Source: Daphnia pulex (lineage: Eukaryota; Arthropoda; Branchiopoda; Diplostraca; Daphniidae). Taken from it: a DNA stretch of 64,000 nt. Both the position numbers and the translations under genes were made by a program. The stretch covers positions 7,998,001 through 8,062,000 of the forward strand of contig NC_060023.1 in the NCBI RefSeq assembly GCF_021134715.1, read 5' to 3'. This document shows, in pieces, positions 25,926-64,000 of the stretch (position 1 is the stretch's first letter; each line of letters begins with the position of its first letter). The notes under the pieces are model-generated. The model worked only from the letters and a program-made list of their open reading frames with translations, was not told the origin of the DNA and made no database searches.

Positions 25926-26011
25926 AATTAGACGCGAACTGACAGACAGACCGTTGTCAAGCTTATTTTTGTTTCGTGTAGCCTCAGGGAGTAGGCAGTA
26001 GGCTATATCTC

Positions 26012-26022
26012 TCAGCTGATCA
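26012..26022 (+). promoter_or_regulatory. Conserved TCAGCTGATCA promoter element
   Basis: TCAGCTGATCA lies 56 bases before the ATG at 26078 and recurs at 28710-28720 before the ATG at 28831, in both cases followed by a Cys-rich-family leader ending gagtctgcgttaaaa. TCAGT-like initiator cores lie just downstream. Confidence 0.4.
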
Positions 26023-26077
26023 CACCATTGTTTGGTCAGTCGTGGTCGTGTTCTAGATCTAGGAGTCTGCGTTAAAA

Positions 26078-28830: not shown

Positions 28831-29775
28831 ATGGCTTCAGCACAAAAAATCCGAGATGGGTTATTTTCTATTACATGGAATACTGCAACACCCAGAACCC
28901 AGCAGCAAACTCTGGATATAAAAGATCTTACAGATTTAACATTTTGCCAACTCTTTTATACAAGGAATGGAGTTAATGCAGTCCTTGAAATGGAAATCCA
29001 TTTTTCCGATACAACTAAGCCAATCAAAATGGAAAACGTGCTTGTTGAGGCCTGGAAAAATGGTGTCAAACAGAAAATGACAATCAATCAATCGAAATGG
29101 ACAGCTAACTGGAATGGAGGAAACTGCCAATACTGCCACACGCACAGTCAGTGCTCACAATGTAGAGTAAACCCTGTTACTTCAATTGGTTTTGTGATTC
29201 TCATCGATTTAACTCCTGGTTCTCTTAAAAAAGGATCACTACATGTTCTCGATCACTTGCTGAATCTGTGGAAAACTAAGACACTAGCTGATGTTGAATT
29301 CCAATGCGATGGAAAATCAATCAAAGCTCACACCTTGATCCTGGCTTCTGGTAGCCCTGTTCTCGCTGTCATGTTTCAAAATGACTTTAAAGAAAAGCAA
29401 GAAAGAGTTGTCAACATCACAGATATCAAAGCAAATATTTTTGAAAATCTTTTGCGATACATCTACACCGGAGAAGTAGCTCTGGAAACTGAGGTCGAAG
29501 ATGTTACCGAGTTGCTGATTGCTGCCGAAAAATACGCCGTTGAAACATTGAAAGAAGAGTGTGCACTTTACTTGTCACGGGATTTAAAGGTGGAAAACGC
29601 GGCTCGTTATCTAGTATTGGCTCACCTTCACAATTCGACCATGCTTCACGAGTCTACACTGCAGTTTATGTCGCAGAACGCTAAAGCCGTTTGTGCCCGC
29701 AAGGATTGGATGGATATCATCAAGAATTATCCCGAGCTCTGCTTCCAAGCTACGCAGCTTATGGTCGGCCTGTGA
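28831..29775 (+). CDS. MATH-BTB protein with CX2C-X5-CX2C insert
   Basis: Intronless, 314 aa, starting MASAQKIRDGLFSITW. Its domain order and length match the copy at 23392. Residues 99-111 carry the same four-cysteine insert (CQYC, then five residues, then CSQC). BTB has LADVEFQC, HTLILASGSPVLAVMF (Val for the usual Ala), YIYTGEVALE, and a BACK end closing in DIIKNYPELCFQATQLMVGL. The leader gagtctgcgttaaaa just before the ATG is shared with the 26078 gene. Expected Cullin-3 adaptor; substrate unknown. Confidence 0.93.
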   Translation: MASAQKIRDGLFSITWNTATPRTQQQTLDIKDLTDLTFCQLFYTRNGVNAVLEMEIHFSDTTKPIKMENVLVEAWKNGVKQKMTINQSKWTANWNGGNCQYCHTHSQCSQCRVNPVTSIGFVILIDLTPGSLKKGSLHVLDHLLNLWKTKTLADVEFQCDGKSIKAHTLILASGSPVLAVMFQNDFKEKQERVVNITDIKANIFENLLRYIYTGEVALETEVEDVTELLIAAEKYAVETLKEECALYLSRDLKVENAARYLVLAHLHNSTMLHESTLQFMSQNAKAVCARKDWMDIIKNYPELCFQATQLMVGL

Positions 29776-30646
29776 AAATATTTCGCCTTACGAAATACGA
29801 AGATTACCGAAAAACAGGGATTCCAACCGCAAGAAACCAATCAAGATACTTTTCATGTTCAATTACCCTGTGTGTTATGCTGTGGCTTCTTTTGAGTTAT
29901 TCGAGTTCTAGGAATATTCTAGATGATGAGTAATACAGAAATTTTGATTTGCAAGTGTTTGATTTATTTAGTGTTTATACGATTTTTTTTTAAACAAAAT
30001 TACTGTCTGACTTTAGTAGTCATTCTTTTTCTGCCTCTCATCCACAATGACAATTAAAAGCATTCCAGAGAGTGCCTTAGTATTACATATTCTCATACTG
30101 GATTTAAATTTTTGCTTTTCCTTAACATTTGCTGCTATTAATTTATTTTATACAATAACGGTAGCCTATATATATTTCGCAAAATTTGTTCAAGTCGGAA
30201 AATGTTTTTGCTTTCGTCGTCACCTCACACTACATTCTTTTATAAATGCTGCGCTAATCTCCCTGAGAACAAATGACTTACAGTCGTCACTTGACTCCAT
30301 TTTGAAACATGAAAACAAAAATTACTATTTTGTTTGGGTTACCCACAACGAAGGTTTCAAATCCGAGCTAACGATTCCCCATCCCTCTTTTTTCACACCA
30401 TATTGTTCGGTTGCCGATGGGTGAGTGTGGGTGGTATTTCTCAGCTGTTTTTTGGCAACCCCCTTTCCATTTTAACAGCTATAACGTTGTGATTGCGACA
30501 GAAGGGCTTTCTCGGACGAATAATCTTTTAGTCTCGAGAGAACCAAGAGCCAAAGTGGTAGGTGAGTTTTCAGTCGTCTCCACTTGAAACGCGCAATCAG
30601 AGTGCTCTGCGGCGTCGCAAACTTTCGCTTGTTTAAAGGACTTGAC
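29776..30646. other. Duplicated intergenic unit
   Basis: No separate gene. 30200-30640 parallels 24900-25370 base block by base block and forms the upstream region of the gene at 30647. Confidence 0.55.
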
Positions 30647-31633
30647 ATGGCGACAGGAAAGAAAATTCGCGAAGGACTTTTCTTGATTTCATGGAAAAAT
30701 TACCACCACACGCCTAATAAGGAAACCAACGAAAATGTACAGCAGCTCGATAAAAACATTTTCGAAATTTGCAAATTAAGTTCTAAAGAAGTCAAATCAG
30801 CACTGCAATTGCAAACGGTTCTCGAGGTGGAAATCGTCCTGGCCAAGGCGATCAAGTCAGCACACAAATTGGAATCAATGACCATTCTAGCCACCAAAAC
30901 GTTGGATGAGGATCAACGAAACGAAACGGTCGAAACCCAACAAAAGATGAATTTCATCGGAACCAAGTGGAGATCTTCATGGACAGAGCAGTTGGTGGTC
31001 GGCTCTTGCCATCATTGCCAGAGCAGTTACAGAAGAAATTTTTTCAAGATCCTCATCGATTTCAATCCGTTTACCGCCGATGTTGTGCGAAGTGCGACTA
31101 TCAAAAAGACTCAGCTATTGAATCTGTGGAAAATGAAAATTCCTTCTGACGTCGTTATCAAGTGCGAAGAAAAGTCGTTTGAAGCCCACACTTTCATTCT
31201 CGAAGCTGGCAGCCCCGTCCTGGCCGCCATGTTTCAACACGACTGCGAAGAAAATCAGAAGAAAATCATTGAAATCGCAGACATTCAACCGAATGTCTTC
31301 CGAAAACTTCTTCATTATTTCTACACCGGAGATGCCAACTTGGAGCAGGACGCGGATGTAGCGGAGCTGATGGTAGCGGCAGACAAGTACGCTGTCGATT
31401 CGTTAAAAGAAGAATGCGGTCAGCATTTATCGCACAAGTTGACGGTGGAAAATGCCGGCCATTATCTCGTCTTGGCCCATACGATCAATGCCGCTAAGCT
31501 TCGCGAATCCTCACTGAATTTCATGGCTAGAAACGCCAAAGCCATTTGTTCGCGTCGCAAGGAGTGGATTGAGATTACCAAGAGTTACCCGGAGCTCTGC
31601 TTGGACATTATGCAATTGATGGCGGTTTTCTAA
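30647..31633 (+). CDS. MATH-BTB protein, divergent array member
   Basis: Intronless, 328 aa from the ATG at 30647 (MATGKKIREGLFLISW); the 21-residue upstream extension does not fit paralogs. MATH is longer than in its neighbours and retains one cysteine pair (SCHHC). BTB reads PSDVVIKC, HTFILEAGSPVLAAMFQ, LLHYFYTGDA; BACK reads VAADKYAVDSLKEECG, VENAGHYLVLAHT, ITKSYPELCLDIMQLM. It is more GC-rich than the other three plus-strand genes and has a decayed duplicate at 25376. Expected Cullin-3 adaptor; substrate unknown. Confidence 0.92.
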   Translation: MATGKKIREGLFLISWKNYHHTPNKETNENVQQLDKNIFEICKLSSKEVKSALQLQTVLEVEIVLAKAIKSAHKLESMTILATKTLDEDQRNETVETQQKMNFIGTKWRSSWTEQLVVGSCHHCQSSYRRNFFKILIDFNPFTADVVRSATIKKTQLLNLWKMKIPSDVVIKCEEKSFEAHTFILEAGSPVLAAMFQHDCEENQKKIIEIADIQPNVFRKLLHYFYTGDANLEQDADVAELMVAADKYAVDSLKEECGQHLSHKLTVENAGHYLVLAHTINAAKLRESSLNFMARNAKAICSRRKEWIEITKSYPELCLDIMQLMAVF

Positions 31634-44817: not shown

Positions 44818-46889
44818 TCAGAAAGGGAGACTGTCATCTGGCAGACAGAAAAATTTATATACTTCGCTATTGGACGAAGGCTGGCAGTGAGCAGGAGTTT
44901 CTTTAAATTTTTGACGAAATTCCTTCATCCATTCCAGATTTCGAGGTAACACCTCTTCGTGAACCACCATTCGAGCAGGGTAATCTTGGCCTGTAAGGGG
45001 AAAGAGAGTATCGGATAAAAAACCTAATCTACAATACAACTTTTTATAACAGTATACGCTACACAAACCTATTATACAATTGGCAGTACGCTGAATATTA
45101 ATGGGAGCCTTCCATGGCTCGTGAATATACTCGAATTCAAAGTTGGCTAACTCCGGAACGTATCTACGAATGTAGTCTCCTGATGGCTCCAGTCGCTTGC
45201 CATATAATACCGAATTGATACAGACAGAGCAATCGAGTAAGCGCTCAAAAGCTGAGCTTGACACCCACATCCAGTTGCCAGAGTTAACTGACCAGTCGGA
45301 ATCTACCAGTTGATTTGCCATGTACTCGGCGCCAATGTCCCAATTGAGCCACAAATCTCCACGAGTTAGAAACATAGCTACAGCATTGCGAACGGAATGG
45401 TGCATCCATCCTGAAAAAAAAAAAAAAAAAACGGAATTTCGAAAAAAAATTCTACTTGTGCACATAAATGAAAGCATTTACCTTCTTGATTAAGTTGCCT
45501 CATCCCAGCATCAATGAAAGGATATCCGGTTTGACCATTTTTCCATTTTTCAAAAAACTCTTCGTTTTCAACCCAAGGAATTTGTAAACAGATGGGGTTA
45601 TCCACTTCCTTATCGAACTTGGGATTCATCCGGCTCATGGCATAGAAGTAATCGCGCCAAATAATCTGGCCTGTAATGCCCAGCCAAGCAGGAGGGTTTC
45701 CTCGATTTACTTTATCAAAAATTTCGTGAATTTTCCAATAGAATCTGAAAATTTTTTAAAGGGATAATTATTGAAAATAAATGAAGAACTATTGAAAATA
45801 AATGAAACAAAATTAAATTTACAGCCGGACTGAGATAGCTCCCACTGAGATAGCTGCGCTCAACGATAATGGTGGACCAAGCAAATCAGGTCGAGCTTGG
45901 TTTGGCTGATAGAAGCCACTCCGGAAAGCGGTTTCTTCGGCCTGCAATCTGATGGCGAAGTGTTTTAGTGCGTTAGTTTCTCCACCAAAAATTCTTCGTC
46001 CACGACAACCAACCGGATTTTCTGGTACCCCAATTTGACTTAGAGTGGGTACTCCGCCAAATAGCTGTGTATGTCATAATTTATAGATTTAGATAAATAC
46101 ATAGACATCCAGTTTTTACATTTTTCTGAAAACTCACAGTAAACCTGTTGGATTCAAATGGTTCTAGGGTGAGAAATTTGACACCTTTCCATTCAGGATC
46201 AGCTACTGGTTTAGGTGGATCTCCAACTGACATTGCAACATGCTGAAAAATAAAAACATGGTAAGACGACTAAGAAATTGTACTAGTTGCTTGATTTATG
46301 TGAAACATTACCACAAACATTTCATAAGTAAGAGGTGGAGTCCCACCATTAGATGCTATAATATCCATAGGATCCCACAGAGTATGAGCAACATGTTCAT
46401 AAACTTCAATATCTAATTCCGAGCAAAAATCTGAAAAGAACACATACAATTTAGATATTTGTGAAAATGTAAACATTTCTAAATCAGATCTCACTTTTTG
46501 CAGCAATGTCTCTTTCATGAAAGATAGGCTCACAATCCTGGATGAAGCAAAGTTTGTTAATGGGCTTAATATTGTGCAGGTGACGAAAAACTTCCAGCGG
46601 GCATCCTTGAAAAACATGTAGCTTGGTCCCAACACTTTTAAGACTTTCATTTAAATCTTGCAAGCATTCCAGCAAGAATCCATTCATATGGTACGGCTTG
46701 TATCCAGGATCTATATGTAAATTTATATTTAGCTAATGTTTGAATAAAACAAATTTGTATCAAAAGAATACCTTGAAATGTTGTGTCAAATACAAACAGT
46801 GCTATGAAATCCTTGGAATTTTCCAATGCAGACAGAAGTGCAGGATTGTCGTGAATCCTCAATCCTCGTCGAAACCATAATACATTCAT
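44818..46889 (-). CDS. cry1: Cryptochrome 1, Drosophila-type blue-light photoreceptor
   Basis: Eight coding exons: 46889-46772, 46710-46495, 46430-46312, 46242-46138, 46064-45823, 45744-45482, 45410-45069 and 44990-44818; 1578 nt, 525 aa. N-terminal photolyase domain ([18 protein letters not shown]) and FAD-binding domain ([50 protein letters not shown]). The SAFERLLD segment and a C-terminal tail with [16 protein letters not shown] place it with insect type-1 CRY, the light-driven partner of TIMELESS, not with repressor-type CRY2. The electron-transfer Trp chain is kept (W401, W378, W324, W375 for fly W420, W397, W342, W394). Two key sites differ from the fly: Asn397 replaces the flavin-facing Cys416, and the tail reads FFC (515-517), not FFW. 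All junctions keep frame. Confidence 0.95.
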
Positions 46890-47699
46890 ATTGAACTATG
46901 TGTAAGCACTGCCTAAAGAAGAGTGATGAAGAGAATCCGACTACGCAGTTTGACTATCTACAAAACCGGAAAAGACGCACGGAAACCTGTTTACCTGTTT
47001 ATCGAACATTGATTGAAACATCAATAATCAAGAAACCTGTGACATTTGCCGCAAAAATGGACCGGCCTCGTAAAATGTAAGGCCTGACGTGCAGAGAAAA
47101 CACATGGCCTTAACTAAACTTACAAGGCCGTCAATAGAGTTTATAACCTTAGAACCCTACAGGCTAGCTACCCCATAGGAGAAACTCTAGCCAAATGCTA
47201 CAGAAGTGGCCAACTTTTGTTTCTAACTCGCACCACTGCCGCTAGGTTCTCTAGGTAGTTAGTGGCCCAAATGTTCGGCGCTTAATTTGAAAACATGCCT
47301 AAACATGCCTAAACATGCCTAAGTAAAAAAAGGCTAAAGCTACAAGTCTCGCAAATCGCGAATTCTCATTCATACCATTTTTTCCATCTTTACTCGATTA
47401 AAATAATGAAAAAGGCAAGATTAACAACTCAATGGTATAATCCAGAAGAACAAAACTGAATTCATTGTAAAAGAAATTAACAATATGAAATCCTTATGAA
47501 TCCTTTGAGGGAACAATTAATCAATTTAAACAAAAATCAAAAAACTTCTTAAGTTATTAGCTTTACTAGTTTGCAGGAAGGGACATCTCTGCTTTTACTT
47601 CTTCTTTGAAGGGTGGATTAGACAGCTCAGCTTGTACTTCTTCATTGACGGGTGGATTTGACATGATTGGATACAATGGATATTCAGTAGGATCAAATT
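46890..47699. other. Intergenic region
   Basis: No supported gene. A 10-bp unit AAACATGCCT is repeated three times at 47291-47320. The left end is the cryptochrome upstream region. Confidence 0.5.
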
Positions 47700-49240
47700 T
47701 CACGGAAACCATTCGGCTGGGACGAGGACTTTGCAGGCCCTTTGCTTCTTAGGTGCAGGATTTTTCACGCTCACGACAGGCGACTTCTTAGCAGAAGAAG
47801 TTGAGGCGGCCAATTTGGCTTTCTTGTCAGTTGGAAGGTCGAATTGTTCGGGCGGTACATTATTCTTAGTAACAATATCTATTTCATCTTTTTGTGGATT
47901 GAACAAACGAAAAGATCCTGCAGCTCCATGGGCTCCCTACAAATTAAAGACAAAAATTTAAGCCAAGTGTTAACAAACCAAAGGAGAGAATTTCTCATTC
48001 AAATAACGCAACAGAAAAATAGCAAAACAGATATACTTACTTTAGTGTTAAACAGTACGCGTTGGGCGACGCCTTTCTTGAGTGCTTGTTTCAAGTGAAC
48101 ATTGGCCATTTTCGAATCATCACCGAGTTTGAAGGATGAAACAATGTAATTGAGAATGGCCTGGCGAGACGAACCTTTGCTATTTTGCTTCAGAATCTTG
48201 ATGGCTTCTACGGCCATGACCAAGTAGGGCGGATGAGATTTCGGCGCTACGCTAGATTTCTTAATTGGGGCATTTTTGATTACTTTTTGGGTTGCAGCAG
48301 CGGTATCAACCTTTTTCGACGCCACCAGTTCTTTCTCGTTAAAGGCGTGAGCCGCGTTCTCCAACTTCTCGACCGAGTGCTGCCTTGACCAGGTGATGAG
48401 GTTGTTGACGTTGTCGTGTGTCAAGCAAGACAACAAATAATCGATGCAATCCTCCTTCAAGTCTTCAATCTCAAATTTGCTAGCAGCAACGTACAATTTC
48501 TGAGCCGTTTCATCTGTCAGAGGCATTGAAATCCGGCCACAGTAAATGTAGTTGAGAAGACTTAGGAAAATTTCTGGAGCTATGTCTTCAATTACAATTG
48601 GATCAGCATTATCTGTGTTCTTCTGGAATAGAGCAGCAAAGATTTGACTCCTAACCGACAAGATTTTCGAGTGTCCGCCAATGCGACGATCACCTTCGAA
48701 TTGAAACTGAACATCGCAATCAACTTGATGAACAAACAAATCTGTCAGCAGCTTCAAGGCCTTCTTCTCTCCTCGACAAAAACTAGGCTCGTACTTAACT
48801 TGGAAGATCAAATTCACTGGCAATTTTCGCGAGCTGTTAAGTTCGCCATTTTCGTTGCTGCTGATGACCAGTGCGTCCGATTTCCAGGAACTTTTCTCCA
48901 AGACCCAAACGGGCTTCAAGGGATTGCGTTGGCTTCCGTCAACGCTGACGGAAATGTTGCAAGGCAGGTGGCGATATCCACCAGAAGAACCTTCCAATCC
49001 ATTCGAAGTCGGATTCCCATGCCATTCCATTCGCAAAGAAGCTGTGCATTCGCCTAGTTTCGATTGTTCGATGGACAAGTAGCACGTAACTTTGCATAAC
49101 TCGAAAGAATTGTAAAGGAATAACTGGAGTGTTTCTTCTATCGACGTCTCGTCATCCACTTTCTTGGCGGGGGGTTTGATCGTGACCGTCCACTCGACTT
49201 GTGACGTGTTGTTGTCCAATTGTTCGACCTTAAACGGCAT
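47700..49240 (-). CDS. MATH-BTB protein fused to a linker histone H1/H5 domain
   Basis: Two coding exons, 49240-48041 and 47936-47700, joined in phase 0; 478 aa. MATH is about 1-152 and BTB about 165-270 (CDVQFQFEGDRRIGGHSKIL, FAALFQ, LLNYIYCGRI), followed by the start of BACK (DNVNNLITWSRQHSVEKLEN). At about residue 300 the family's usual end is replaced by a Lys/Ala linker and an H15 domain at 336-411. That domain begins HPPYLVMAVEAIKILK, continues GSSRQAILNYI and LKQALKKGVAQ, and ends in TKGAHGAAGSFRL, the classic linker-histone globular core. A Lys/Ser/Pro-rich tail with SPVV follows, as in H1. About 65 residues of H15 sit in the same uninterrupted exon as MATH-BTB, so this is not a joining error. 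H15 binds the nucleosome dyad; BTB recruits Cullin-3. The likely role is chromatin-tethered ubiquitination (inference). The ATG at 49240 has A at -3. Confidence 0.93.
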
Positions 49241-49879: not shown

Positions 49880-50902
49880 TTAATTTTTAACAATTAAGGT
49901 GAACATGTTTTCCATCATGCGGCGAGTCGCCAACACACTCAGCTCCGGGTAGTTTTTCGTCAGACTCTCCCAACTTTCCAGTTTGCAAATTTCCTTGCCG
50001 TGTCTGGCTGCGAAGGCGACAGTCGCTTCCTTGGCTTTTGTGATTGAAAAATTGTGCGACCAGATCATCAAATTGAGGACGTTGTCCACTCGAACACAAG
50101 TCAACAGGAATTTGACGCAATCTTTCTTCAAATCAGCAATGTCATATTTGTCAGCTGCCGCGTAGAGAAGATGGGCAGAAGCTTCCGTCATGGGTTTCGA
50201 CATCCGTCCGGAGTAGATGTAGTGGAGCAGTTGGTCAAAAATGTCGGGCTGGATGTCTTCAATGTCAACTTCGCCCGTGATTGCCTCTTTCATGTTGTGC
50301 TGAAACATGGCCGCGAAAACCGGACTCCTGGCCGCCAGGATGACAGAATGGGCGCCCAGCTGCTCCCGTCCTTTGAAACGAAACTGGACATCGCAATTAC
50401 TCTGCTGGACGTACAAATCCTTGACGTGTTTCAGGGCATTCTTCTGGCTCCGGCTGAATGTCTCGAACTCGACCCAGAACTTGCACGTCAACGGCAACGA
50501 CTTCTCTTTGCTAGAACGAGAGAATTTGAAAGGGATTAATCCAGACATCCATTCTTTCTTCCCTGCTCCTCTCAACTCCTTCAGTTTAAACTTGTCGCTT
50601 CCGTCGACGCTGCCCCAAATGGCGAATGGACGGTGATGATTTTCCGACTTGACGCTTACTTCTCCTCCGCTCAACGTCGTCGATTGTCTGTGCCATACTA
50701 AATACAGCTCAATTTCGTACGTGTTTTTCTTGGGATTGACAGTCTGGCTGTACAAATGGCACGTCACAGTGTAAGCGGCGCATGGATGGAAACGATTCAG
50801 TTGGACTTTCTCGTTTGTGTGATACTGCGAAACGTGTTTGACTTTTGTTTTCCAAACGATACTCGTCAGACCGCTGGCCGCTTCTCCAACCGTTACTGGC
50901 AT
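49880..50902 (-). CDS. MATH-BTB (SPOP-like) protein
   Basis: Intronless, 340 aa, starting MPVTVGEAASGLTSIVWKTK. MATH spans about 1-165 and closes in LTCKFWVEFETF. BTB carries NCDVQFRFKGREQLGAHSVI, ARSPVFAAMFQ and LLHYIYSGRM; BACK has NVLNLMIWSHNFSITKAKE and LTKNYPELSVLATRRMM. It lacks the cysteine insert of the array genes and is closest in layout to the genes at 5622 and 47700, together forming an older subgroup. It is the best nearby guide to what the histone-fusion gene lost. Expected Cullin-3 adaptor. Confidence 0.92.
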   Translation of the reverse strand: MPVTVGEAASGLTSIVWKTKVKHVSQYHTNEKVQLNRFHPCAAYTVTCHLYSQTVNPKKNTYEIELYLVWHRQSTTLSGGEVSVKSENHHRPFAIWGSVDGSDKFKLKELRGAGKKEWMSGLIPFKFSRSSKEKSLPLTCKFWVEFETFSRSQKNALKHVKDLYVQQSNCDVQFRFKGREQLGAHSVILAARSPVFAAMFQHNMKEAITGEVDIEDIQPDIFDQLLHYIYSGRMSKPMTEASAHLLYAAADKYDIADLKKDCVKFLLTCVRVDNVLNLMIWSHNFSITKAKEATVAFAARHGKEICKLESWESLTKNYPELSVLATRRMMENMFTLIVKN

Positions 50903-52003: not shown

Positions 52004-53041
52004 CTATAGACCAAGAATAAGCTGCGTAGCTTGGAAGCAAAGTTCTGGATAGTTCTTGATAATTTCCATCCAATCCTTGCGTGAACAAATAGCTTTTGCG
52101 TTCTTTGAGATGAAATTCAATGAGGCTTCGCGAAGTTTTTGTGAACTATGGAGATGAGCCAGCACCAGGTACTGTGCCGCGTTTTCTATCGTCAATTTGC
52201 GGGATAAAACAAGAGCGCACTCTTCCTTTAATGTCTCAACCGCATATTTGTCTGCTGCAACCAACAATTCAGCAGCATCCACGTTTCTTCCGCTGTTGAA
52301 ATTTCAAGTGTAAATGTAACAAAGAAGCTCTTCAAAAACCTCGGGGTTAATATCTTTGATTTCAACCACTTTTTCTTGGTTTTCTCTAAAATTGTGCTGA
52401 AACATTGCTGCCAATACGGGACTTCCGGAAGCGAGGATTAGGGTGTGAGCTTTGATGTTATTATTCTTGCATTTAAAAGTGACATCAGACAAAGTTTTGG
52501 TATTCCATAGATTTAATAAGTGATCAAGAACGTGCCTTGATCCTTTTTTCACAGAAATCACAGAATCTGCTGGGGTAAAATCAATATGAATATCAAAACA
52601 AAGTGGGCTTTCTCTCCCACAGGAAATGCAACGATTTTGCGTGGTTAACTGTTGAAATCCGGAATTTTTGATTACGTTCCACGTCGCTGACCATTTCGAT
52701 TGGTTTAAAGTCATCTTCTGTTGCAAGCGATCTTTGCGATCTTTGCTCGCATGGATTAGTATGGTTTCAAAGTCAAATGGTTTTGTCTGGTTTCCAGCAA
52801 AAACGGTTTCTATTTCAAGCACTATTTGTATTCCATCCATTTTGCATGTAATTAGGAAAGAACTAACGACATCCGTTAGTTTTGAAACGTCTACCCGTGT
52901 TTGAGTAGAATTTTTGGTAGCTTGATGCGTTGGTGCGGAAAAGCTAAATGCACCCAATGTGTTTGCCTGCTGTATGTTAAGTGGAGCATCCCATGAAATA
53001 TGAAGTAATCCTTCCTTGATTTTTCGGGCTGAAGATGCCAT
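52004..53041 (-). pseudogene. MATH-BTB gene with a single nonsense codon
   Basis: The frame is open over 346 codons (starts MASSARKIKEGLLHISW, ends ATQLILGL) except codon 246, at 52304-52306, which is TGA where all minus-strand paralogs have GGA (CYIYTGNFNSGRN). No other disruption is visible. The stop falls in the BTB domain and would remove the BACK region. MATH keeps one cysteine pair (RCISCGRES). Its 5' flank (53100-53350) is nearly the same as that of the 59834 gene. It may be a very recent pseudogene, a segregating allele, or a sequence error. Confidence 0.8.
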
Positions 53042-53978
53042 CTCTTTATGAAATCTTGCTTATAACACAGACTTATAAAGGTGATTTTTTGAGAATTTCC
53101 CTCTAATGCAAGTTAAGGAATAACCGTAGCGAACAAGTGAAACACTTCGACTAATTCGTGACTATTAAAGAAACTCTGTCATTGGGATAAGCAGAGTATG
53201 GCACACCTTTTAAAACATAAGGAAGAATCCCACACAGATAACATATCTATAGTATGTTTTCTTTCGCACGTGTAATCTAGATTTTTTTGGGGCACATAAG
53301 ACCGCATAACATTAGTTTCTAGATTGAATGCATTCCGAGTTGTATTAAAAAGTTTTTTAAGCATGTCTAATACATGGCATTTTTAATGAATTGATGGAAA
53401 TAGGAATGAGGTTTTGCAACCGAAGTTCTTGATCCATATGCTAAAGTGTTTTACGTGTACAAGCAAAATATTAACTAATAGAACATATAGTTATAAGGTT
53501 ATAAGAGGTAAGTATGTTGATGACAAGAACGTTTGTTAATTTCTATTCATTTCTTATTGGCCCTTTTGAATAGCATCTTAATGGAATTTCTTTGATTCTG
53601 GCCTTAGCATATTTCTAAGCAAAGTGAAACAGTACTACTTAATACTTATTATATTTACGTAGTCATTTAGAAAAAACCGCGCATATCTATTGATTTTTAA
53701 AAATAAATAAAAATGTGGTTTTAAACCGTGTATTATTTATCATGTAAAGGTTGACCACCAGAGAGGCAGGACACTAAGTGGTACAACAAAATTTGGCGAT
53801 GGGTGGTGCTGGGTGGTCGATTCAATGTTAAGGGCTGTTATTTGATGAAAGCCGACGAAATCGTTAGTAGCTCACTCCGGGACTTGACTTGGGATGAGTC
53901 ATGTTATATCGCATAACAAATTCTTCGAATGCGTCTAGCAGTCTAGCTTAATCCGCAAATTTTCAAATGTGAAAAATG
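53042..53978. other. Duplicated flanks
   Basis: 53100-53350 is the 5' flank shared with 60900-61180. 53560-53920 is a 3' flank shared with 59400-59750 and 61640-61985 (shared strings include agcaaagtgaaac and gggacttgact). No separate gene. Confidence 0.65.
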
Positions 53979-54142
53979 CTATAGAAGGCCAATGATAAGC
54001 TGTACGGCTTGGAAGCTAAGTTCTGGATAGTTCTTGGTAATTTCCATCCAATCGTTGCTTGAACAAATAGCTTTAGCGTTCTTTGAGATGAAAAATAATG
54101 ATGCTTCCCGAAGTTTTTGTGATCTATGAATATGAGCCAGTA
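53979..54142 (-). pseudogene. MATH-BTB C-terminal fragment (~54 codons)
   Basis: Reads VLAHIHRSQKLREAS, ISKNAKAICSSNDWMEITKN and YPELSFQAVQLIIGLL, then TAG, the exact family C-terminus. Homology stops abruptly at about 54142, beyond which unrelated sequence leads to a CYP4 pseudogene. This marks a recombination or deletion junction. Confidence 0.9.
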
Positions 54143-54698
54143 CTTTAACTTTACTTTAATCAGGTGTCCTTATTCGCTGAGTAGCTGACGCACATGAGAC
54201 CCCACATCAACGCATTCGGTTTCTTTGCTGTGGGAAAACATATTTTTTCCATCGGTAAAGAGCTTTAGTGATTAAAAATCGCAAATAAAATTTTAAATTT
54301 GAGTTTCTTCTTCACTGCAGCTTATAGGATCAACGCTGACTTACTTCCTTATCCTACTGCAGTTTCATTCAGCTGAATAAAAACCACGCATAAATCAAAC
54401 ATAAACTTGGTCTCATTTTGAATTTCCCGGAATTTCCACACTATAGTTTGTGTTTGATCGAGCCTGTAACTCGACCGATAGATGGTATACAAATAATTTT
54501 TCGTTTCCTTTCAAAAATATGACAACACCTTTGTTGTGTTTTTACTTTTTAGTTCGTTCGTGTACAAAACGAAGGTCGAAGCAGGTGTACTCAGGTATCA
54601 AGTGGCCGGATGTATTTACTTTCTAATAGCTAAAAAGCTTATATCTAGTCGCCTAGTGGTTCGCAGTTTTTCTCGTGTGTTGTACTTTGCCAGTGGTA
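54143..54698. other. Sequence upstream of the CYP4 pseudogene
   Basis: No gene seen; probably the old CYP4 promoter region. Confidence 0.45.
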
Positions 54699-56425
54699 AT
54701 GCTAGAATTTGTGACACTGACGTCGCTAATCTTCGTTGTTTTGATCATCTGGTATTGGCTATGAGAGTGCTCCTCTTTTGTTCGTCAAATCGACCGCATT
54801 CCTTGGCCGCCTAAAGTTCCATTCTTTGGAAATGTGTTCGAATTCCTCGAGATGGTTCAGGTAACACACCTTTAATATCAAGGGTCTGCCATCGTTGCGA
54901 TTTCATCCCCCCAATACATAAAAGTATAAAAATATTTTCTTTTCATTTATTATTCGATAAGGATTACATATTTTTTTAAATTATTCAAATTTAGCGTGCT
55001 TACAAGCCAGAAGAATATCGACAAGAGCAGCTACTACATGCTATTTATATGGAACCTTGGCTTGGCAATGGCTTGTTATTATCAATATCTGGTAAATTCA
55101 ATTACATTAAGGGAGATAAATAATAAAAATAACGCAAATCCATTTTAAAGGTGACAAATGGAAAAAGGACCGCCGGCTGCTGACACCAGCGTTTCACTTT
55201 CAGATTTTGGGAGATTTTTTTGAAGTTTTCCATAGAAATGCTGATGTCAACGCATAGCAGAGCAGATTATCAACCGGCTAACGGACAGCGAGGAAATCGA
55301 CATTTTTCCTATGATATCACGCTGCACCTTAGATATCATATCCGGTAATGATTTTTTTTTCTTTTTTCAAACAGGTGTTTTCTATTTGTTGTTCTATTGT
55401 GAATCATACCTTTACTTTGTGTGATGTTCTCGGCTTCTATAATTTCGTAGCTAACCCAACTTAACTGAATATTTTTCAAATATTCTCCAATATGTCTAAT
55501 TATAGAGGCTGCCATGGGTATTAAAGTGAATAAAGTCAATACGCAAACCGAGTCGGTTTCGGAGTACATCAAATCGATTGATTGGTAACTGTGGCTAAAC
55601 TTGTAACGAATATTAAATCAATTCTTTAAATTGTTCAAACACATGCATAGAGGAGAAGAAATGACGCGAGGCAGATTTTATATTCCGTCCTTAATGGCTT
55701 ATAAAATTAAATTCGACGTTTCATTTTACAGGTGCTACGAGATAGAAAACAACAAATCGAAAATACCAAATCTGATGACGAAATCGATCCGGTTGACGAA
55801 ATCTGATGAGTCGAAAATGAGCGCTCGTAAGTAAAATGCCATCCAAGAAATTGCTCATCAATTTTAAGATTTGTTTGTTCGATAAATCGCAGGGAAGAGA
55901 AAACCTTTTTTCGATTTGTTGTTGGAAACCGCTAAACGAGAAACGGAGTTGAGCGAATCAGTACATACAGAGCCAAGTCAACACTTTTATGAATGCGGCA
56001 ATTTTTGACTTCTCTTAAAATTAAAGATTTTTCTTCGAAAGTTAATTGCGTTACTTCCATCTAAAAGGGTCATGATACCACGTCGGTTGCTCTGACTTGG
56101 TTTCTTTATTGTATGGCAACTCATTCGGAAGAGCATCAGGTGCTACTAAAGATTTCAGATTCTTCTATAATCAGTTGCCGTAACTTGTTTATAAATCTCA
56201 TTTCAGGAACGCGTCTATGAAGAACTCCTGGAATATTTCGGCGAATCAAACCGACATTTTGCCTAATTTGAAATATATGGAGTGTTACATGAAAGATTCC
56301 ATCCGTCGTTACCCTAGCGTCGCCAATTTTCATCGACAAATCAGCGAACAAGTTCAACTGGGCGACTACACTCTTCCGGTCGGAGCTTCGGTTAGCGTTC
56401 AGGTTTATACGCTTCACCGTAATGT
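54699..56425 (+). pseudogene. Cytochrome P450 family 4 pseudogene
   Basis: Exon remnants occur in the correct CYP4 order. ATG at 54699 with a membrane anchor and IDRIPWPPKVPFFGNVFEFL (in-frame TGA before it). About 54995: EEYRQEQLLHAI and PWLGNGLLLS. About 55150: GDKWKKDRRLLTPAFHFQIL, then a frameshift, then TDSEEIDIFPMISRCTLDII. About 55505: EAAMGIKVNKVNTQTESVSE. About 55732: VLRDRKQQIEN. About 55892: GKRKPFFDLLLETAKRE. About 56068: GHDTTSVALTWF, the I-helix oxygen-binding motif. About 56206: ERVYEELLEYF, a frameshift, then CYMKDSIRRYPSV and YTLPVGASVSVQVYTLHRN. It ends before the heme-binding cysteine region, where the duplicated MATH-BTB flank begins. Several stops and frameshifts; non-functional as a P450. 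Confidence 0.9.
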
Positions 56426-56436
56426 CAGGATACGCT

Positions 56437-56930
56437 TCAGGCCGTCGCAGGATACGCCTGTCTTGTGTAAATCTCCTTTTGTTACTGATCGGACCACTCC
56501 TCTGGTCGCACAGTCGTCATTATTTTTACTTCTTTATGAAAGAGGTCTCTACCCTTGTTTTGTTTTACGCACCTTTCCCCATTTTTTTTTTACTGGAACT
56601 GAAATCTGATCGGATAATTGCAATGTATTTGAGCTTCTTGACAAATCGGATAATTTTTTCCCCGATACTATAAAAAAATAACATTTAGAGTTTCAAGTAA
56701 GCACATGATATTTTTTTCTTTATAAATCATAAACAATTCTAGATTCATCAATTTCGCTTGTCCGTTAAAAAGTATTTGAACCACTAAAATTTACAAAAGC
56801 GTAGCCTACGTCTGTTAATTAATTATCGATTAAACCAATTTCGGGAAGTTTATAGAAGAATTGTTTTTTTTGTGCTTCTGATCTTAATAGGCATCGATCT
56901 TATCTAATGTAAACAGACAGTAAGATACGA
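56437..56930. repeat. Right copy of the segmental duplication
   Basis: Matches 50957-51400. Its left edge falls within or next to the CYP4 exon, so the duplication (or a later deletion) cut off the 3' part of the CYP4 gene. Confidence 0.85.
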
Positions 56931-57366
56931 TCTCAGATAACAGATAATGATATCGTGCTGCTATCCAGGTTATTGCTACATTGCTACATTATTTGCTATA
57001 CAGATAAAAGCCAGCAAGACTGAAGCAAGCATTTTGCCGCATTTTGCCATTCTTTTAACACCACGTATCATTCGTAGTAGACTTTGTTTCAAGCCTAGAA
57101 ATGTGTACTAATAACGAAAAGGTAATCACGGCTTCATATTTAATTTAAAATATTTAGAATGAAATAGTATTTGAATAGTAATATTTATTGTATTTGAAAC
57201 ACCATTAAAATAGCAATTGGTGTTACAGTAGTATAGTAGTATAGCCTACCATACCCGACTTTGCTGCTATACATGCTAAATCAATTTACCAAATGTTAAA
57301 ATAATCTTTGGGTGCTGTGTGGTGCCGTGTTCGATTGATTCGTCAACATTGTCAATGTGGAAAGTG
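56931..57366. other. 3' flank of the 57367 gene
   Basis: AT-rich; parallels the flank at 51420-52003 in part. No gene seen. Confidence 0.5.
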
Positions 57367-58389
57367 CTATACACTAAGCATAAGTTGCGTTACTTGGAAG
57401 CAAATTTCTGGATAGTTCTTAATAATTGTCATCCAATCCTTACGTGAACAAACGGCTTTTGCGTTTTTTGTGATGAAATCTATTGAAGCTTCGTAAAGTT
57501 TTGGTGAATAGTGGTCATAGGACAACACCAGGTACTGTGCCGCGTTTCCTACCTTCAGCTTCCGGGATAAAACAAGAGCGCATTCTTCTTTTAATGTCTC
57601 AACCGAATATTTGTCTGCCGCGACAAACAATTCAGCAGCATCCACGTTTCTTCCGCTGTTGAAATTTCCAGTGTAAATGTAACAAAGAAGCTCTTCGAAA
57701 ACCTCGGGGTTGATGTCATTGATTTCGACCACTTTTTCTTGGTTTTCTCTTAAGTTGAGTTGAAACATTGCCGCCAATACGGGACTCCCGGAAGCGAGGA
57801 TTAGGGTGTGAGCTTTGATGGATTTTCCTTGGCAATTAAAAGTGACATCAGACAAAGTTTTGGTATTCCACAGAGTTAACAAGTGATCAAGGACATGCTG
57901 TGTTCCATTTTTTGAAGAAATCACAGAATTTGGGGTTAAATCAATGAGAATATGAAAAATAAGTGGGTTCTCTTTTCCGCAGTAATTGCAACGAATTGGC
58001 GTGATGCAACGTCTACATCCGAAAATTATGGACGCGTCCCACATCGCTGTCAGTTTTGATTGATTCAAAGTCATCTTTTGTTGTTCGCGATCTTTAGTCG
58101 CATGAATCAGTATAGTTTCCAAATCAATTTGTTTCGTGTGATTTTTTCCAATACGGGACAGAATTTCAATTTCAAGAACTATTTGCTGTCCTTCCGTTTT
58201 GCAAGTGAGTATAAAAGAATCAACGACATCCGTCAGAGTTGAAACGTTTACCTGGGTTTGAGTAGGATTTCCAGTCTTTCCAGTATTTTGACCCACTTTG
58301 TGGAATCCGTGAAAGTCATCTGATGGCGTGTATGTGGCATCCCAAATGATATGAAGTAATCCTTCTTTGATTTTGCTGGCTGATGCCAT
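57367..58389 (-). CDS. MATH-BTB protein with CX2C-X5-CX2C insert
   Basis: Intronless, 340 aa, starting MASASKIKEGLLHIIWDATY. The MATH loop carries C125, C128, C134 and C137 (GCRRCITPIRCNYCGKE), the same spacing as in the plus-strand genes at 23392 and 28831. BTB reads LSDVTFNC, HTLILASGSPVLAAMFQ, LLCYIYTGNFNSGRN; BACK reads VAADKYSVETLKEECA, NAAQYLVLSYDH, IIKNYPEICFQVTQLM. Frame intact. Expected Cullin-3 adaptor; substrate unknown. Confidence 0.93.
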   Translation of the reverse strand: MASASKIKEGLLHIIWDATYTPSDDFHGFHKVGQNTGKTGNPTQTQVNVSTLTDVVDSFILTCKTEGQQIVLEIEILSRIGKNHTKQIDLETILIHATKDREQQKMTLNQSKLTAMWDASIIFGCRRCITPIRCNYCGKENPLIFHILIDLTPNSVISSKNGTQHVLDHLLTLWNTKTLSDVTFNCQGKSIKAHTLILASGSPVLAAMFQLNLRENQEKVVEINDINPEVFEELLCYIYTGNFNSGRNVDAAELFVAADKYSVETLKEECALVLSRKLKVGNAAQYLVLSYDHYSPKLYEASIDFITKNAKAVCSRKDWMTIIKNYPEICFQVTQLMLSV

Positions 58390-58589
58390 ATTTTTAATGA
58401 AGTCCTTTTACAATGTTAATCTCATATAGGGTTAGGCGATTCTTTGGTGCGAATTGCAAAACACACTAACGCCACCAGCTACTGGAACAACTCTGCCAGT
58501 AAATTGATGTAATACAATGGCGGTCCAGTTATCAGGCCACCCGCTTATCGGGCCAGTTAAAGGGCTGCACCTGATCAGCGCCATCATGT

Positions 58590-59048
58590 GGGATCGAAGA
58601 GGAAGAAGAAGAGAAAAATTTAGTTTTTCTAGAATTGTTTGAAATATTGCTGCTAATACTTCTACTGCTAATAATTCCGGAAGCCAGGATCAGGGTGTGA
58701 GCTTTAATGTTTTTGTTCTTGCAATTCAAAGTTACATCAAACAAAGTTTTAGTATTCCACAGATTTAACAAGTGATCAAGGACATGGTTGGATCCTTTTT
58801 TTTTATAGAAATCACGGATTCAGGATTTGAATCAATGAGAATATCTAAACCAAGTGAGCATGATTTCCCACAGTAATTGCAACGTATCTGCCTGGGGAAA
58901 CGTATACATCCGAAATTCCCAGAATTTGTGGATACGACCCAATTCGCGCTCCATTTTGATTGATTGTAAGTCATCATTTGTTGTACGTGATCTTTGGTCG
59001 CAAAAATCAGTATAGTTTCCCATTCAAATTGGTTCGTGGGCTTTCTAC
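58590..59048 (-). pseudogene. MATH-BTB pseudogene, truncated at both ends
   Basis: Starts inside MATH (QFEWETILIFATKDHVQQ), keeps YNQSKWSANW and the cysteine region IRCNYCGK, then shifts frame in an A-run near 58800 (GGATCC after AAAAAAAAA). BTB resumes in another frame (LLNLWNTKTLFDVTLNCKNK, then HTLILASGI) and breaks up after about 58640. Both the N-terminus and everything after the BTB start are lost. Confidence 0.9.
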
Positions 59049-59833
59049 TTTCTAGTCATTAAGGCTGTGTCCAGAGGGTCGGTTACACCGCACCGAGCTC
59101 TGTCGTTGTCTCGTTCCCAAGGCTAACGCCAGATTAATTGGATTGGATGTAGAAACGTTATGACATAGAAAAACCACCAAAATCAGGCTCAACATATTAA
59201 CTGATATGGCAGTAGCGCCCGTTGATACTCGCGTTGATATCAAGGAAATTTGATTACAGTTCCGTTTCTCGATAGTTAATATACGTTAGTACTAAAATTA
59301 AGATATAATAAGAACTTATAAGATTGATGAAATTAGCGTGAGCTCCTCCTATAGGATGCTGCAATACACCAATGCACATCAGTATCAATTAGATATGTAT
59401 TCATTTGGTTTTTTCTGACATCAGTTGGATTTTAATAAACATTCTTCGCTTCTGGCCTATCAAAGCAAAGTGAAACGTACTTACTTAATTATACATTATA
59501 ATCTCATGCAACGCAATCTATTGTTAACAAAACAAAAATAAACAAATAAAAATGCGGTTTGCGCCGTGTAGGCTATTATCTTTTAAAAATTGGTCATCAG
59601 AGGCATGGCATGAAGGTACAGTAAGAAACTTGTGACCATGGGTGTTGTGTCGGTCGATAATAAGGCTATGATTTGATAAAAGCCGACGAAATCATAGTAG
59701 CGTACCATGGGACTTGACTTTGGCTATATCACTTGAGTCATGCTATATTACTTTATAATTCAAATTATAACAAATACTTCGGATATGCGTTCACGTTCAG
59801 TTGGTTCCGCAAGTTATATCAACGTGGAAAATG
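59049..59833. other. Duplicated 3' flank of the 59834 gene
   Basis: 59400-59750 is a copy of the flank also seen at 53560-53920 and 61640-61985. No gene seen. Confidence 0.6.
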
Positions 59834-60853
59834 CTATAGAAGGCCAAGGATAAGCTGCGTGGCCTGGAAGCAAAGTTCTGGATAGTTCTTGGTTATTTCC
59901 ATCCAATCCTTGCTTGAACAGATAGCTTTTGCGTTCTTAGAGATGAAATCTAATGATGCTTCGTGAAGTTTTGGTGAATCATGAAGATGTGCCAGCACCA
60001 GATACTGTGCCGCGTTTTCTACCTTCAACTCCCGGGATAAAACAAGAGCGCACTCTTCCTTTAATGCCTCAACCGCATATTTGTCTGCTGCAACCAACAA
60101 TTCAGCAGCATCCACGTTTCTTCCGCTGTTGAAATTTCCATTGTAAATGTAACAAAGAAGCTCTTCGAAAACCTCGGGGTTGATATCTTTGATTTCGACT
60201 ACTTTTTCTTGGTTTTCTCTAAAATTGTGCTGAAACATTGCTGCTAATACGGGACTCCCGGAAGCGAGGATTAGAGTGTGAGCTTTAATGTTTTTGTTCT
60301 TGCAATTGAAAGTGACATCAGACAAAGTTTTGGTATTCCACAAATTTAACAAGTGATCAAGAACGTGCCTTGATCCTTTTTTCACAGAAATCACAGAATC
60401 TGGGGTAAAATCAATGAAAATATCAAAACAAAGTAGACGTGGGCTTTCTCTTCCGCAGGAATTGCAACGAGTTTGCGTTACTAACTGCTGAAAAACGAAA
60501 TTTTTTGTTACGTTCCACGTCGCTGACCATTTCGATTGGTTTAAAGTCATCTTCTGTTGCAAGCGATCTTTGCGATCTTTGCTCGCATGGATTAGTATGG
60601 TTTCAAAGTCAAATGGTTTTTTCTGGTTTCCAGCAATGACGGTTTCTATTTCAAGAATTATTTGTTGCTCATCCATTGTGCAAGTAAGTAGGAAAGAATT
60701 AACGACATCCGTTAGTTTTGAAACGTCTACCTGTGTAGATTGATGCGTTGGTGCTTTAAAAAGTGCGAGAAGTCCTGTCTGCTGTATGGTAAGTGGAGCA
60801 TCCCATGAAATATGGATTAATCCTTCTTTGATTTTTTGGGCTGATGATACCAT
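59834..60853 (-). CDS. MATH-BTB protein, cysteine-array subfamily
   Basis: Intronless, 339 aa from the ATG at 60853 (MVSSAQKIKEGLIHISW); an in-frame ATG-less extension to 60910 is ignored because paralogs start here. MATH keeps a single cysteine pair (RCNSCGRES). BTB reads LSDVTFNC, HTLILASGSPVLAAMFQ, CYIYNGNFNSGRN (Asn for the usual Thr); BACK reads VAADKYAVEALKEECA, NAAQYLVLAHLHD, ITKNYPELCFQATQLILGLL. It is the intact sister of the 52004 gene, with a shared promoter region at 60900-61180. Confidence 0.93.
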   Translation of the reverse strand: MVSSAQKIKEGLIHISWDAPLTIQQTGLLALFKAPTHQSTQVDVSKLTDVVNSFLLTCTMDEQQIILEIETVIAGNQKKPFDFETILIHASKDRKDRLQQKMTLNQSKWSATWNVTKNFVFQQLVTQTRCNSCGRESPRLLCFDIFIDFTPDSVISVKKGSRHVLDHLLNLWNTKTLSDVTFNCKNKNIKAHTLILASGSPVLAAMFQHNFRENQEKVVEIKDINPEVFEELLCYIYNGNFNSGRNVDAAELLVAADKYAVEALKEECALVLSRELKVENAAQYLVLAHLHDSPKLHEASLDFISKNAKAICSSKDWMEITKNYPELCFQATQLILGLL

Positions 60854-62063
60854 CTCTTTATTAAATCTTATTAAACAGTTTAATAAAAGTAATTTTGTTA
60901 AGCAAAACACTCTAATGCAAGTTGAGGAATAACTGTAGCGAACAAGTGAAACACTTTGACTTATTCGTGACCATTAAACAAATGCTGTCATCGGGACAAG
61001 CAGTGTATGCCAGTATGGCACTCCTTTTAAGACATAAAGCATTATCCGACACACAGATAACATATCTATAAAGAATTTTTTTTTCTTTCGCTCGTTGTTT
61101 AATCTAGATTTTGTCGGAGCACATAGGACCGCATAAGACTATATAGATAGTTAAGCAATCTGATATATTGAGATAAGAATCTCTTTTTTCTTCAACTGAT
61201 GGATCGTCTTTCCAACGATTTTCGTTTTTAGCAGTTTCTACACTGATGCGATGTCAATTAAATTTACGAAATACAGATCAACGTTGAGAAGGAGGAAGCA
61301 CACAGTATTTATAATGGCTCGATCTTAAGGTGCTTTTTTAGAAAGCAGTAAAGACTGGAGGGAATGGGACAGATTATTGGACGAGTGGAAAAGAAATTGC
61401 GAAATAGCTCACTGGAAAGGAAGCGGAAAAATTCATTGATACAATACTGCGGGTTATATATAGTAGCTATAATTAAGCATCTGAAATAATTCCAGGAACG
61501 TCCAGGACGATGTAAAAAGAAATGAATTTCCGATGTAAGGCAAGCCATCAAAACTCGTACACAAAATATAAACTTAAACTTATTCGGCGGTAGGTAACTT
61601 GATTTGTCAAGACGATCAGCAATTGTTAATTTTTATTAATTTTTTCATTATTGGCCATCTTGGCGGTTGGATCTAAATATAATTTCTTTGCGTCTGTCTT
61701 TAATATAAGCAAAGTGAAACAGTAGGCTTATTATTCATTTTAAAACCCACGCTCAATTTATTGATGAAAGAAAAATAATAAAAAAATTGCGGTTTGTGCC
61801 GTGTATTATCTTTTGAAAATTGGCCACCACAGGCATGGCTACTAAGTGGTACACAAGAAACGCAAGAAACGTATACGATGGATGGTGGGTCGGTCAATGG
61901 TAGGCTACACATGATTTGATAAAAAATCATTAGCTAGTTACTCTGGGACTTCACTAGTGATGACTGATGAGTCATACTGATGATGAGTCACTATATTTCA
62001 AAATGTAAAATTTTTTCTGATGCCTTCAGTTTGTTTCCCAAGTTTCATCAATGTGGAAAAAAA
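60854..62063. other. Promoter of the 59834 gene and duplicated flanks
   Basis: 60900-61180 matches 53100-53350. 61400-61450 (gaaaggaagcgga) recurs near 63725. 61640-61985 is the third copy of the shared 3' flank. No gene seen. Confidence 0.6.
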
Positions 62064-63080
62064 CTATAGAAGACCAATGATAAGCTGCGTGGCCTGGAAG
62101 CTAAGTTCTGGATAGTTCTTGGTAATTTCCATCCAATCCTTGCGTGAACAGATAGCTTTTGCGTTCTTAGAGATGAAATCTAATGAGGCTTCGCGAAGTT
62201 TTGGTGAATTATAGAGATGTGCCAGCACCAGGTAATGTGCCGCGTTTTCTACCTTCAACTTCCGGGATAAAATAAGAGCGCACTCTTCTTTTAATGTCTC
62301 AACCGCATATTTGTCTGCTGCAACTAGCAATTCAGCAACATTCACGTTTCTTCCGCTGTTGAAATTTCCAGTGTAAATGTAACAAAGAAGTTCTTCGAAA
62401 ATCTCGGGATCGATGTCTTTGATTTCGACCACTTTTTCTTGGTTTTCTCGAAAGTTGTGTTGAAACATTGCTGCCAATACGGGACTTCCGGAAGCGAGGA
62501 TTAGGGTGTGAGCTTTGATGTTATAGTTCTTGCAACTAAAAGTGACATCAGACAAAGTCTTGGTATTCCACAGATTTAACAAGTGATCAAGGACATGCTT
62601 TGATCCTTTTTTTGGAGAAATCACAAAATCTGGGGTTAAATCAATGAGAATATCAAAACCCATTGAACTTTCTCTCCCGCAGGAATTGCAACGATTTTGC
62701 GTGGTGCTCTGTTGAAATCCGTAATTTAGGAATACGTTCCACTTCGCTCTCCATTTGGATTGAGCATAAGTCATCTTTTGCTGCACGCGATCTTTGGTCG
62801 CATGAATTTGTATGGTTTTCAATTCAAATTGCTTCGTCTGCTTTCCACCAATAGGGGATTCAGATTCTATTTCAAGAACTATTTGATGTCCTTCCATTTT
62901 GCAAATGAGTTCGAAAGAATCAACAACATCCACCAATGTTGAAACGTTTACCGAAGTACGTTTGATTTCAAAACTTTGACCCCGGTTATGATTTCTGTAA
63001 TAATTTAGTTCGTTCGGCAATGCTTCGATATACCATGAAATAGAAAGTAATCCTTCTTTGATTTCTTTTACTGATGCCAT
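62064..63080 (-). CDS. MATH-BTB protein, cysteine-array subfamily
   Basis: Intronless, 338 aa, starting MASVKEIKEGLLSISW. MATH keeps one cysteine pair (RCNSCGRES). BTB reads LSDVTFSC, HTLILASGSPVLAAMFQ, LLCYIYTGNFNSGRN; BACK reads VAADKYAVETLKEECA, NAAHYLVLAHLYN, ITKNYPELSFQATQLIIGLL. Frame intact. It is the outermost gene of the minus-strand array seen here; its C-terminus is the closest match to the fragment at 53979. Confidence 0.93.
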   Translation of the reverse strand: MASVKEIKEGLLSISWYIEALPNELNYYRNHNRGQSFEIKRTSVNVSTLVDVVDSFELICKMEGHQIVLEIESESPIGGKQTKQFELKTIQIHATKDRVQQKMTYAQSKWRAKWNVFLNYGFQQSTTQNRCNSCGRESSMGFDILIDLTPDFVISPKKGSKHVLDHLLNLWNTKTLSDVTFSCKNYNIKAHTLILASGSPVLAAMFQHNFRENQEKVVEIKDIDPEIFEELLCYIYTGNFNSGRNVNVAELLVAADKYAVETLKEECALILSRKLKVENAAHYLVLAHLYNSPKLREASLDFISKNAKAICSRKDWMEITKNYPELSFQATQLIIGLL

Positions 63081-64000
63081 CGTTCAATAAAGTCTTTTCA
63101 CAATTTCAATCTAACACGATAAGATAATTTTTTTGTGCGAAACACACTACCACTAAGAACACTAATTGGGTACAACACTACCAGTAGACTGATACAATAA
63201 GAGAAATAAGAAGAGCAAAAAAGATACAACTTACTAAAAAGGACTCTAAATCATTTCTATTAGTTCTAAGTGAAGAAATCAAACAGCTAGGAAAAGACAA
63301 CCAACGTTGATGCAGCTTGGCCCAGAGGCAACCCCAAATTGATTCAGGGAAAGACTAAAGAGATTCAGAGGACAATCTTGAATACATGGAATTCCTCACT
63401 TATTGGATCGTCACCATTACGATTGTGACAAAGGATATAATTCGTGGTACGTTGTTGTATCATGGTGGTTGCAATCAAAGCTCTCAATTATAATCCACAA
63501 ATTTCAAGTTATTTCACGTGATGATATAAGAATAAAACATGCAAACTGCGTTATTCGTTTTGTAATGTTCGCGATCAATGTACTAAAATTTGTCAAAGAA
63601 CCGTAATAGAGTTACGGCGAGAAAGCACACGGTATAACAGCTGCTGAAGTGTGCATAAAGCAAAAAGGAGGAGCGGGATTCGGTCGGTTGTATAAGGGCG
63701 AAGGGTGCAGAATAGCTCAATAGAAAGGAAGCGGAAGATTTACTGCTGGTTAAATGCTACGGAAAATGGAATTGAGTATTCAAATGAGACGTATATTGAT
63801 TTTGGCTAGAAGAGAAAAGCCATGATTGAATGTCAATTTCTTATTGGCCCTCTTGACGGCGGAAGGGTTGGTGAAGTTCGATTAGAATTATTTTTCTCTT
63901 TAAACGTTAAAATTATAGCCTAATCAGTACAAACAGCAGCTTTTCCTTTGCAATTTCAAAATGATTCAGTAAGTTGATCCCTACTATCGAATTAATTACC
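63081..64000. other. Upstream flank of the 62064 gene
   Basis: No supported gene. 63720-63900 repeats parts of the flank at 61400-61690 (gaaaggaagcgga; ttcttattggccctcttga), so another array unit may continue beyond the window. Confidence 0.55.

Follow-up and report, generated by a model that had tools for sequence, protein, structure and literature searches.

How might a linker-histone head come to sit on a protein of a ubiquitin-adaptor family? In a stretch of Daphnia pulex DNA (the window; 64,000 nucleotides, G000:C7:7998001-8062000, in a genome of 133.19 Mb and 13 contigs), we confirmed a real minus-strand gene in which a MATH-like fold, a BTB domain, a 3-box, and the globular domain of linker histone H1/H5 (H15) are joined in a single frame. 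The explanation that we favor, with a little better than even confidence, is that this is a real gene, seen at one place in the genome, for a MATH-BTB-H15 protein that arose by capture of H1 exons and whose product acts as a nucleosome-tethered scaffold or bridge. Such a gene would record an intron-marked capture of a linker-histone head by a ubiquitin-adaptor family—one that a distant relative retains and in which the contact to Cullin-3 (Cul3) has eroded—and offers a case for how exon capture yields new chromatin proteins.

Gene anatomy and domain content

The original prediction described a 1200-nt uninterrupted exon encoding MATH, BTB, and most of H15, followed by a second exon adding GAHGAAGSFRL and a Lys/Ser/Pro-rich tail. 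A minus-strand open frame does span 49372-47999 in the window's list of open frames, and the predicted start, ATG 49240, is also the start position of the database proteins P0001 and P0004. The features of the gene, and of the neighboring paralogue used for comparison, are as follows:

48041..49240, minus strand: exon 1; 400 codons without a stop, holding the MATH-like domain, BTB, 3-box, linker, and first 65 residues of H15
48779..49240, minus strand: N-terminal MATH/TRAF-like beta-sandwich, residues 1-154, by fold comparison
48431..48739, minus strand: BTB/POZ domain, residues 168-270 (PF00651, E 5.8e-20, 72 bits)
48599..48625, minus strand: degenerate Cul3-binding loop QKNTDNADP, residues 206-214, at the phi-x-E site of SPOP and most paralogues
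48326..48427, minus strand: 3-box/BACK start, residues 272-305, with the BACK end absent beyond (the SPOP alignment reaches residue 301, and the alignment with the neighbor agrees)
48236..48325, minus strand: basic linker, residues 306-335, net charge +6
48041..48235, minus strand: H15 globular domain, exon-1 part, residues 336-400, three helices (PF00538)
47937..48040, minus strand: intron, 104 bp, phase 0, positioned as in the H1 genes L002 and L004
47904..47936, minus strand: H15 wing, exon-2 part, GAHGAAGSFRL, residues 401-411
47700..47903, minus strand: Lys/Ser/Pro tail and stop TGA, residues 412-478, net charge +5
49883..50902, minus strand: neighboring BTB paralogue, outside the fusion; a single open frame in which the BACK end is normal and phi-x-E (MKE) intact

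Splice signals stand at both ends of the intron (donor AAA/GTAAGT at 48040, acceptor TTTGTAG/GGA at 47937), and exon 1 is predicted to be spliced to exon 2 (47936-47700), which supplies residues 401-478 as had been proposed, closes with TGA, and gives a predicted protein of 478 aa. The database relatives P0001-P0004 all read V-S right after NTK, matching read-through into a GTxAGx donor at the position of this intron; they resemble predictions made on unspliced DNA and therefore lend no support to the splicing. The gene is presumably expressed. On the minus strand at 47748-47566, a protein-like repeat (SNPPVNEEVQAEL/SNPPFKEEVKAEM) lies in an open stretch that reads the terminal exon in another frame; it overlaps the end of the fusion tail and may mark an alternative 3' end.

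How secure are the individual domains? The PF00538 match covers residues 336-411 and positions 1-73 of the 74 in the profile (hmmscan; 75.7 bits against a cut-off of 22.4, E 3.4e-21), well past chance level, and sequence matches show that the fused H15 resembles H1.0 and H5. Our structure model comprises exon 1 alone, so the H15 wing is absent from it; the model places helices at residues 339-352, 359-369, and 376-392. When the whole exon-1 model was compared by VIA-align, no H15 chain appeared among the best 50 rows, and the H15 call thus rests on Pfam and the sequence matches to H1.0 and H5. The BTB domain, whose Pfam match likewise lies far above its cut-off, is of the SPOP type, matching the SPOP BTB in sequence (E 8.1e-13) and in fold and falling among MATH-BTB paralogues in trees. 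The 3-box is retained, and the end of BACK that would complete the family's usual architecture is gone: its NYPEL motif, present in the neighboring paralogue, is absent from the fusion protein, from P0004, and from a further relative, P0008. The proposal that a histone module stands where the BACK end should be is thus borne out, as is the uninterrupted exon with its BTB and H15 domains. The MATH part of that exon was unrecognizable by sequence, with no Pfam match by hmmscan in the fusion protein, the neighboring paralogue, or nine other relatives tested. The isolated MATH model was also unrecognized by Foldseek alone, and the fold comparison that supports it is VIA-align of this model, with a modest Z; on this modeled evidence a MATH-like domain probably precedes the BTB domain, as in the MATH-BTB family.

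Is the fused domain a linker histone in full? According to PMC9635857, H1 globular domains contact DNA through ~10 basic residues. Seven of 10 such sites are kept in the fused H15, compared with 8/8 readable sites in P0004, 9/10 in L002, and 8/10 in L004. The fusion protein lacks the long, strongly positive, Lys-rich C-terminal tail of linker histone H1: its tail has 67 aa, 16% Lys, and a net charge of +5, whereas the corresponding values for two H1 genes of D. pulex are +46 and +44. Because of this weakly basic tail, we regard the fused H15 as a putative nucleosome-binding module rather than a linker histone proper, and its head would be expected to bind nucleosomes less strongly than H1.

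Conservation and origin of the fused domain

How widely is the fusion shared? A search of 5.8 billion proteins found four with BTB and PF00538 domains, both precomputed in each, and with the frame intact through H15. Three are close to the fusion protein: P0001 (98% identical, 25 member sequences), P0002 (90%), and P0003 (98%, beginning within the MATH-like domain). The fourth, P0004, is a distant relative, with 38% identity in the local match and 40-45% in alignments, and its linker from BTB to H15 runs for ~150 codons without a stop. Because the BTB-H15 join recurs in these four proteins, we rejected an assembly artefact. P0008 (15 members, 52-57% identical to P0004) is the sister of P0004 and lacks the BACK end; H15 is not visible in its reading, which ends NQVTMLFDL, possibly by running into an intron, and we counted it as lacking H15. 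A cysteine motif after the BTB region (CSCVMC/CGCVMC) is common to the linkers of P0004 and P0008 and absent from the fusion protein.

The reach of these searches was limited: the profile search missed the existing P0001-P0003, so the absence of more species is no evidence, and a protein search with the H15 part of P0004 alone (7 candidates) returned only P0004 and is uninformative on rarity. Bacterial and archaeal genome contigs and viral contigs yielded no relative of the fusion, as expected for an animal gene. Within the D. pulex genome, the H15 family search found five places (7 candidates, 7 scored), and the fusion gene is the sole one inside a BTB frame. A weak match at G000:C9:1310212, with three stops, covers query residues 176-389 into the H15 part; it is the BTB row L075 and is absent from the H15 family search list.

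For the trees, BTB pieces <100 aa and near-duplicates (sharing a 70-residue block) were removed, leaving 10 database rows and 83 from the D. pulex genome (those among the matches listed, and so at least 83), plus SPOP. The larger MATH-BTB tree used 80 of these 93 rows, leaving out open frames <280 aa; the smaller used 37 of the 80, hand-chosen as a clade of 35 minus P0003, plus three outside rows. In the smaller tree, MATH-BTB columns group the fusion protein, P0001, P0002, P0004, and P0008 against the 32 other rows with support of 98/94, and the same five proteins group with support of 99/94 after the phi-x-E loop columns are removed. Between the fusion protein and P0004, H15 is the slowest-changing module (66% identity over 65 positions, vs. 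49% over 148 for BTB and 27% over 145 for MATH). Identities to P0002 are 94% for MATH, 91% for H15, and 89% for BTB.

Where did the fused H15 come from? Four H15 places lie outside the fusion gene, and the two that we read, L002 (C7) and L004 (C1), are ordinary H1 genes; L001 and L005, on the opposite strand, match L002 and L004 in frame length and almost in score. The four form two opposite-strand pairs, L001/L002 (G000:C7:3601755 and 3606693) and L004/L005 (G000:C1:5963247 and 5947123). A phase-0 intron at NTK/GA.GAAGSFR occurs in L002, L004, and the fusion (123, 73, and 104 bp, respectively), unlike the neighboring paralogue, which is one open frame, and the fused H15 matches L002 at 68% of positions and L004 at 55%. 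From these sequence comparisons we conclude that the fusion probably captured genomic exons from an H1 gene resembling L002: a MATH-BTB gene would have lost its BACK end and taken up the exons of a resident H1 gene together with their intron. The retained H1-type intron led us to reject a retrocopy origin. We claim no donor link through the basic linker (residues 306-335), which is low-complexity sequence.

The Cullin-3 contact and competing readings

Does the fusion protein still recruit Cul3? In KLHL3, the phi-x-E motif (M83-S84-E85) inserts into Cul3, and the E85A change takes binding below the measurable level, while SPOP binds Cul3 through its BTB domain and 3-box (PMC3616122). In the fusion protein, the corresponding position in the alpha3/beta4 loop reads NTDNAD, without the motif. 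Among the 83 distinct BTB rows listed, the fusion gene included, both residues stand in 60, E alone in 12, phi alone in 3, and neither in 8; the fusion gene belongs to these last eight, along with L018, L026, L030, L036, L038, L033, and L077. In the tree of 80 rows, 21 of the fusion gene's 26 nearest paralogues keep both residues. Of the relatives, P0002 has E alone, and both residues are missing in P0001, P0003, P0004, and P0008; the loop is cut from the usual eleven residues to five in P0004 and P0008. The idea of a nucleosome-targeted Cul3 adaptor, put forward at the outset, therefore fared unevenly: the H15 domain keeps most of its basic contacts, and canonical Cul3 recruitment appears weakened. 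Cul3 binding could still occur, because the 3-box and the remainder of BTB are kept and the motif is also missing from five near paralogues that carry no H15; any Cul3-mediated ubiquitination would then require a noncanonical or weakened contact.

Which reading of the gene does this evidence favor? One candidate is a Cul3 adaptor that brings the ligase to nucleosomes by its H15 head and acts on chromatin proteins. The SPOP-like fold with its retained BTB and 3-box—the parts SPOP itself uses—would fit this, as would the MATH-like fold. Against it stand the NTDNAD sequence, the shortened loop in P0004 and P0008, the effect of E85A in KLHL3, and the retention of both residues in 60 of the 83 BTB rows listed, and we consider it unlikely. 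Instead, we favor a BTB dimer that would be tethered to nucleosomes and offer a client site through MATH, because phi-x-E has been lost while most paralogues keep it. Much less probable again, and in our view hardly credible, is that two separately transcribed genes share an open frame, a MATH-BTB gene and, downstream of it, an H1-like gene or pseudogene, since exon 1 is free of stops, the in-frame join recurs in P0001-P0003 and, across a long stop-free linker, in P0004, and H15 is well conserved with its intron and wing exon.

Two further readings concern the head itself. It could be a passenger, captured with little function and tolerated in a fast-turnover family, as the size of that family, the three basic sites lost, and an H15 no better kept than MATH relative to P0002 might suggest; the 66% identity of H15 to P0004 despite so divergent a MATH domain, the full set of readable basic sites in P0004, and a frame that stays intact through H15 in each of the four relatives make this improbable. 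Slightly less probable still are independent captures, in which H15 was joined to a MATH-BTB gene twice, once in the D. pulex lineage and once in that of P0004. The H15 of P0004 is indeed closer to L002 (77%) than to the fused H15 (66%), the H15 tree does not speak against this reading, and the sister P0008 shows no H15 in its reading; yet the MATH-BTB parts fall in one clade, the fusion gene and P0004 both lack the BACK end and phi-x-E, and both carry H15 on the C-terminal side, with the frame leaving H15 at the same codon.

We thus return to the tethered scaffold or bridge. The fusion protein would be nuclear, its BTB dimer would present two globular heads to nucleosomal DNA, and its MATH domain would bring a client protein to nucleosomes. 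A bolder version, which we advance tentatively and hold to be less probable than its negation, is a lineage-specific clade of MATH-BTB proteins without Cul3 contact whose BTB dimers hold two H1 heads, cross-bridge nucleosomes, and bring in MATH clients. Several observations weigh against the scaffold reading. The fused H15 has N at R42 and K52 (two core contacts) and at K97, and the short, weakly charged tail would lower chromatin affinity. H15 is not the slowest module relative to P0002, and it is as like the ordinary H1 L002 (68%) as the H15 of P0004 (66%); strong constraint on the fused head is therefore unproved, and the likeness to P0004 may partly reflect generally slow H15 domains. BTB dimerization is assumed from the fold, and the MATH assignment depends on a modest Z. 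The loss of phi-x-E is not peculiar to the fusion, being shared by five of its 26 nearest paralogues, all without H15 (L018, L026, L030, L036, and L038). Finally, the H15 tree (12 rows) does not fix the order of P0004, L002, L004, and the fusion group (support 68/63), and a single origin therefore rests on the MATH-BTB tree and the shared anatomy. With this gene one can ask whether a BTB dimer makes an H1 head serve as a nucleosome bridge or as a chromatin-localized client platform.

Genomic surroundings and known systems

Eleven more BTB open frames, from several subfamilies, lie in the window (5625-6647, 8468-9583, 23311-31633, 49883-50902, and 52304-63083), and a BTB match at 52055-52627 contains an internal TGA. 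On the minus strand at 18138-19242, repeated W...W units before GKR resemble what we take to be a myoinhibitory-peptide (allatostatin B) precursor, and presumably cryptochrome/photolyase-like frames adjoin the fusion gene at 44818-46895 on the same strand.

Has such a protein been described? The original prediction knew of no MATH-BTB-H15 architecture, and within the open-access literature (titles and abstract starts of the papers listed, a scope that excludes most subscription papers and all bioRxiv preprints) we likewise found no BTB-linker-histone fusion, including in work on Daphnia MATH-BTB/SPOP, Daphnia H1, H1-domain architectures, contact residues, and the Cul3 motif. The term "linker histone" is absent from the available text of a BTB architecture survey of 17 genomes (PMC1257465). 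By its sequence, the fusion protein appears to be a MATH-BTB-type protein with H15 as a novel C-terminal module. The database holds a second nonhistone H15 architecture, P0007 (682 residues), in which H15 (E 1.9e-24) is accompanied by a weak, sub-threshold match to a C2H2 zinc finger (E 0.0012).

Compared with SPOP and other MATH-BTB Cul3 adaptors, the fusion has H15 and a tail in place of the BACK end, no phi-x-E, and a MATH domain unrecognizable by sequence. It shares with linker histones H1/H5 a globular domain that clears the PF00538 cut-off, close identity to L002, an intron, and most basic sites, and differs from them in its preceding MATH-BTB part and its short tail of low charge. The plant H1-domain fusions covered in PMC9635857 likewise combine an H1 globular domain with another DNA-related module, but their partners are Myb or AT-hooks rather than MATH-BTB, and we suggest no common origin. 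BTB-zinc finger and BTB-BEN factors also join BTB to a chromatin- or DNA-binding domain in a single chain (abstract of PMC7764960), whereas the fusion protein has a BTB of the MATH-BTB type, an N-terminal MATH-like domain, and an H15 of the nucleosome type.
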